NCBI GenBank assembly: GCA_029260635.1
Contig: JAJDCW010000192.1
Coordinates: 1-33,393 of the forward strand
Direction of reading: 5' to 3'
Length of the DNA: 33,393 bases
DNA from: Phycisphaeraceae bacterium
GTDB lineage: Bacteria > Planctomycetota > Phycisphaerae > Phycisphaerales > Phycisphaeraceae
Shown in pieces: positions 11,125-30,269 of this stretch. Below the pieces are notes generated by a model. That model made no database searches and was not told the DNA's origin. It worked only from the letters and a program-made list of their open reading frames with translations. Position numbers and translations under genes: made by a program. Each line of letters begins with the position of its first letter. The stretch's first letter is position 1.

Positions 11125-11160
11125 ATTCTTATGAGATGATCATCAGTCCGGTCGGCGCAT

Positions 11161-11197
11161 AAAAAAAGGCGGCCGGGGCGATATCTCGCGCCCGGTC
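11161..11197 (-). terminator. Intrinsic terminator with seven T residues
   Basis: On the minus strand a GC-rich stem (CCGGGCG with CGCCCCGG, one bulge, about 9 bp) is followed by CCGCC and TTTTTTT. This is the clearest evidence that a minus-strand transcript ends here, more than 430 bases from the nearest minus-strand gene. Confidence 0.8.
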
Positions 11198-19833: not shown

Positions 19834-19862
19834 TTGACGCCGCCCCGATTCAAGTCGATAAT
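19834..19862 (+). promoter_or_regulatory. Strong sigma70-like promoter of a small transcription unit
   Basis: TTGACG (19834-19839), a 17-base spacer and GATAAT (19857-19862) give five of six consensus matches in each box with optimal spacing. This is the best promoter in the window. Predicted start is near 19869. Confidence 0.75.
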
Positions 19863-19900
19863 ATAGTTGGATAGACTAAAGAAAGGAGGCCCGTAGCCAC

Positions 19901-19936
19901 GTGATCGCACAACTTGATGTTCGTACCGCCGAGTGA
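19901..19936 (+). CDS. 11-residue ORF with strong ribosome binding site
   Basis: GTG start, product MIAQLDVRTAE, with GGAGG eleven bases upstream. The spacing is a little long but this is the only start in reach of that site. I do not recognise the peptide. The alternative ATG at 19917 opens a 67-codon frame that passes through the terminator and into antisense of bioD, and is therefore less likely. Confidence 0.4.
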   Translation: MIAQLDVRTAE

Positions 19937-20002
19937 GGCGCAGAGTTATATCTGGATTGAACGTTATTTTTTATTCATCATTCATCCTCGCTCGGTTTTT
20001 TT
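19929..20002 (+). terminator. Intrinsic terminator of the small transcript
   Basis: CCGAGTGAGG (19929-19938) pairs with CCTCGCTCGG (19986-19995) over ten pairs with one G-U, closing an AT-rich 47-base loop, followed directly by TTTTTTT (19996-20002). Confidence 0.75.
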
Positions 20003-20073
20003 ATACGCGTGCCGAGCAGGTTTCTTCGAAGATTCAATTGTAATTTACGAGCGAAGTCAGTCACGTCCACATA

Positions 20074-30226: not shown

Positions 30227-30269
30227 AGACTGTGCAATAGCTGTCCGCGTTGACATACCAACAGGTATA

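Follow-up and report, generated by a model that had tools for sequence, protein, structure and literature searches.

A compact transcription unit lies on the forward strand, at positions 19834 to 20002, of the 33,393-nt stretch of Phycisphaeraceae DNA analysed here (hereafter, the window). Does it serve a short reading frame and a neighbouring gene, or does it encode an RNA with a role of its own? An earlier note on this DNA had proposed the former, with ribosomes on an 11-codon ORF blocking the terminator hairpin and thereby controlling read-through toward the antisense strand of bioD.

Parts of the transcription unit

The promoter, Shine-Dalgarno (SD)-like motif, GTG ORF, stem arms, and T7 tract were all found as the earlier note had described them. 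The sigma-70-type promoter TTGACG-N17-GATAAT (19834..19862, + strand) consists of a -35 element, TTGACG, at 19834-19839, a 17-nt spacer, and a -10 element, GATAAT, at 19857-19862. In the homologs described below, the family promoter is TTGAC-N17-TATAAT-like, and TTGA(C/T) was found 16-18 nt from the -10 element in 33 of 36 homologs; one further -35 match, in G036, was visible by eye. The search models begin near the -10 element and exclude the -35 element. It is probably this strong promoter of its own that drives the predicted RNA. It is not uniquely the best in the window, since a consensus scan placed it level, at 10/12, with TTGACA-N16-GAAAAT at 30250.

The predicted noncoding RNA of ~134 nt (19869..20002, + strand), with its start taken from the -10 spacing and its end from the T-tract, begins with the motif GGATAGAC (19869..19876, + strand; alignments A2 and A8), for which the family consensus is near AGACGGAC; outside the genus, conservation of the GG of this motif is lost. 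The stretch AGAAAGGAGG follows at 19880-19889 and includes the most conserved block of the RNA, GAAAGGAGG (19881..19889, + strand). The GTG ORF of 11 codons (MIAQLDVRTAE; 19901..19936, + strand) starts 11 nt 3' of GGAGG, a long spacing for a start codon, and its TGA stop at 19934-19936 does lie, as had been pointed out, within the 5' arm of the terminator stem. Three elements are constant across the family: the promoter with the AGACGGAC-like stretch, GAAAGGAGG, and the terminator.

The terminator comprises the 5' arm CCGAGTGAGG (19929..19938, + strand), a 47-nt loop (19939..19985, + strand) with a conserved AU-rich stretch CGTTATTTT...CATTATTC (alignments A7 and A8), and the 3' arm with its T7 tract (19986..20002, + strand), of which CCTCGCTCGG occupies 19986-19995 and the tract 19996-20002. 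The 10-bp hairpin, including one G-U pair, and the T7 tract had been recognized before; the long loop had gone unmentioned. Because of this loop, a standard terminator scan (loop 3-8) misses the hairpin. In the covariation analysis, both sides had changed in 8 of 10 stem pairs, and 95.5% of cells were paired, compared with 28-37% in slid-partner controls. A 19-sequence MAFFT alignment, which was not model-fitted, likewise contained both-side changes in 6 of 10 pairs, and the AU-rich stretch of the loop was retained across homologs in the alignments. The whole predicted RNA folded no better than shuffled sequences (z 0.01); its overall folding energy is uninformative. The covarying stem and the T-tract indicate that the predicted RNA ends at an intrinsic terminator whose conserved loop is unusually long.

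The T-tract is followed by ATGCGC at 20003-20008. T-tracts of intrinsic terminators followed by ATGCGC were seen here and in other Phycisphaerae, as well as elsewhere in this genome, e.g., at 11155-11166 of the window (- strand). The pattern TTTTTNNTGCGC occurred 20 times against 5 times for the reversed pattern, and 10 of 11 inspected ATGCGC sites followed a hairpin, including one after 16S rRNA. Perhaps ATGCGC, which we take to resemble the TGYG of the elemental pause consensus, is a termination enhancer. It was rejected as part of the RNA because many other terminators also precede it.

Distribution, reading frame, and neighbouring genes

In a BLAST search of 61 genomes, the unit was found in all five congeners with E-values of 1e-23 to 1e-48 (8e-39 to 5e-48 in three of them and about 1e-24 to 1e-26 in two), and both BLAST and the alignment placed the start of conservation at the promoter and its end at the T-tract. 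A covariance model built from the five congeners (R1) gave matches in further genera of the window's family f1, one per genome; some of the weakest spanned the terminator half only, and that of G036 was replaced by a better match elsewhere with model R2. With R2, 38 of 400 genomes of the order matched, once each (32 in f1 and 6 in f6), and model R3 matched six genomes of f9, which belongs to another order of the class, and G034. The arrangement of promoter, SD-like motif, and hairpin, which the earlier note had suggested seeking in related genomes, was thus present in about 45 genomes of the class Phycisphaerae (families f1, f6, and f9) spanning more than 20 genera, with one covariance model match per genome. 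E-values from such short-calibrated models are only approximate, and models built iteratively may drift; the conserved -35 box and synteny, both of which lie outside the models, argue against drift.

No match was obtained by covariance search in the near-complete f1 genomes G008, G010, G018, G023, G068, and G071 or in families f2, f3, and f5 of the same order, so the RNA either is not universal or has diverged beyond the model. Among 392 genomes of the phylum, the RNA was not found in other classes, except for one partial terminator match. Weak class- and phylum-level matches in f8, f19, f20, f23, f24, and f92 were rejected, the inspected ones being ordinary terminators; f24, f92, and G615 were judged from partial or weak matches alone. 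A 16-nt promoter match in C211 proved to belong to the promoter of an unrelated gene. Rfam 15 gave no match in the window at the gathering threshold, nor did seven homologous loci yield any even at E ≤ 1; a literature search found no small RNAs described for Phycisphaerae. These results suggest an undescribed, ancient, single-copy noncoding RNA family of Phycisphaerae. The compact, independent unit proposed earlier is therefore borne out by its homologs: its conservation extends beyond close strains to another order, and it is no decayed remnant of a longer gene. Chance, which the strength of each signal had been said to make unlikely, is excluded by this conservation and not by that strength.

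The reading frame is not part of what is conserved. Of the six species in the genus, only G000, G001, and G003 have an 11-codon ORF that ends inside the stem; in the sister species G002, G004, and G005, it has 7 codons. Beyond the genus, most family members either lack the ORF or have one of 1-14 codons; G015, for example, has GTG-TAA, and G032 has no start codon. A start codon 2-14 nt after GAAAGGAGG was present in 17 of 44 homologs, compared with 16.1 expected from shuffled sequence, and a stop codon lay in the stem in 3 of 37. The ORF lengths within the genus and the chance-level start codons rule out a conserved peptide, for which a search had been proposed, and we judge the ORF not to be a gene. 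The stop codon inside the stem is a local accident.

The common gene order in f1 is GT39 - nfo - RNA - upp - aroK(-) - DUF721, and GT39-nfo-RNA-upp-aroK is the ancestral order. Because the nfo-RNA-upp order is conserved, orthology is supported independently of the models. In f1, upp comes next, on the same strand, in about 19 genomes; its first matched position there is 11-471 nt beyond the terminator, and G030 has the upp SD directly after the terminator. Given this position, there may be read-through into upp in the f1 genomes that carry it. G011 and G016 have no upp at this place, and a comparison of the window's genus (L030-L032 and L034) with L069 and other f1 loci showed that this locus has lost nfo and upp in that genus but retains the RNA. 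The four members of the genus tested yielded no UPRTase above the cut-off; even so, the RNA persists there at 75-84% identity. The convergent neighbour is bioD in the window and aroK in the sister species; in f6, it is a radical-SAM gene. Read-through into upp cannot explain the retention of the RNA elsewhere, and, the neighbours being variable, the family shares no downstream gene that read-through could regulate. Since the RNA is kept through the loss of its neighbours, it is independent of them, and the unconserved ORF together with the changing neighbours points to a stand-alone noncoding RNA.

Complementarity to the 16S rRNA tail and rival explanations

The positions of GAAAGGAGG are each 84-100% conserved in 44 homologs, compared with 30-52% for the immediately flanking bases. 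The 16S end of the window's genome reads GGATCACCTCCTTTCT, to which AGAAAGGAGG is perfectly complementary over 10 bases; the anti-SD tail CCUCCUUUC of the same genome is matched exactly by the nine complementary bases of GAAAGGAGG, and the conserved block has sharp edges that line up with this tail. The predicted duplex has an energy of about -15 kcal/mol in most homologs. At inner positions 2-8, G016, G021, G057, and G078 carry A-to-G changes, so that pairing to the 16S tail is preserved as G-U; G022, G045, G074, and G482 are exceptions to such pairing-preserving substitution. The predicted accessibility of GAAAGGAGG is moderate (mean unpaired, 0.53; overall, 0.45). GTGATC was considered as a second half of the 16S complement (GATCAC) and rejected; it occurs in the genus and is unconserved outside it.

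We infer that pairing through GAAAGGAGG takes place most likely with 30S subunits and otherwise with C/U-rich mRNAs. The near-invariant block would form a 9-10 bp duplex with CCUCCUUUC, by which the predicted RNA would capture 30S subunits without translation; in consequence, the RNA would protect itself, or initiating ribosomes would be tied up. To a stand-alone ~134-nt noncoding RNA with its own promoter and terminator that captures 30S subunits via GAAAGGAGG, we assign a probability of about one-half. We are more tentative about a dedicated ORF-less RNA that binds 30S via its full-length anti-SD complement and acts as a ribosome decoy or 30S storage RNA. The cry3A mRNA of Bacillus thuringiensis is stabilized by a STAB-SD in its 5' UTR, which blocks the 5'-3' exonuclease RNase J1 (PMC4113751). 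The Phycisphaerae RNA resembles this element in having, near its 5' end, an SD-like sequence that is complementary to 16S rRNA and, judged here by sequence only, does not initiate translation. Unlike STAB-SD, however, it is no mRNA 5' UTR, being followed by a terminator and, in the window's genus and f6, by a convergent gene. Moreover, RNase J (TIGR00649), against which such a barrier would act, was found above the cut-off in none of 51 family genomes, which gave sub-threshold matches only, and the family thus lacks the mechanism through which free SDs are known to protect RNAs.

Against the 30S reading, the partner of GAAAGGAGG could be a protein or any C/U-rich RNA. The main rival is a trans-acting base-pairing sRNA whose GAAAGGAGG and AU-rich loop pair with C/U-rich mRNA sites, altering translation or stability, with an incidental 16S match. 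Such sRNAs typically share with the unit an own promoter, a length of ~100-150 nt, short, single-stranded conserved segments, an intrinsic terminator, changing neighbours, and the lack of a conserved ORF. However, the coincidence of the block edges with the 16S tail speaks against this explanation, the conserved core is SD-like and not an anti-SD-like (C/U-rich) seed, and Hfq (PF17209) was found in none of 51 family genomes, with positive controls, so that another chaperone, or none, would be needed. We regard it as doubtful. A protein partner could be CsrA, encoded in all 51 family genomes and usually twice, whose dimers would be sequestered by the GGA motifs (GACGGAC and AAGGAGG); as in CsrB/RsmY, these lie in single-stranded regions, and in some members they are about 15-18 nt apart. 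The several GGAs and repeated GGA hairpins of CsrB/RsmY are lacking, however. The sole conserved GGA lies within GAAAGGAGG, the 5' one often being AGACAGAC or AGACGAAC, and this single motif speaks against a CsrA sponge, as do the conservation of nine bases, which exceeds the ANGGA requirement, and G016, in which GAAAGGGGG breaks the GGA. CsrA sequestration is accordingly unlikely. The CsrA copies of f1 genomes are usually two clearly different ones, of about 90 and 50 bits.

Two explanations link the unit to transcription termination. As an attenuator of upp (pyrimidine salvage), SD, ORF, and terminator would form a UTP- or translation-sensing leader, as in pyrBI. The promoter, the SD, the short ORF of some members, the U-rich loop, the terminator, and the frequent position upstream of upp all recall such leaders, and upp provides a same-strand regulated gene in many f1 genera. 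No such gene follows in the window's genus or f6, however, G011 and G016 lack upp at the locus, and a conserved leader ORF overlapping the terminator was not found. We consider attenuation of upp improbable and, since the RNA persists at loci that have lost upp, reject this as its main role. The model of the earlier note, in which translation of the 11-codon ORF blocks the hairpin, agrees with the stop codon in the 5' arm in G000, G001, and G003. It is contradicted by the variable ORF, the start codons at chance level, and the changing neighbours, with no downstream gene to serve, and we give it very little credence.

Significance

To our knowledge, the small RNAs of Planctomycetota are almost unexplored. 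Elsewhere in the window's genome, around position 185 of L054 (G000:C45), a short hairpin with TTTTTTTATGCGC forms a unit that is preceded by a promoter-like CCATTGCCAAG...TAGCATGG stretch and is possibly a second small RNA. An RNA that has stayed single-copy across two orders while neighbouring genes were lost is probably of some importance for the cell. Because its core is an exact complement of the anti-SD with no reading frame behind it, the predicted RNA raises a testable question: could a bacterium capture ribosomal subunits by means of a noncoding RNA?
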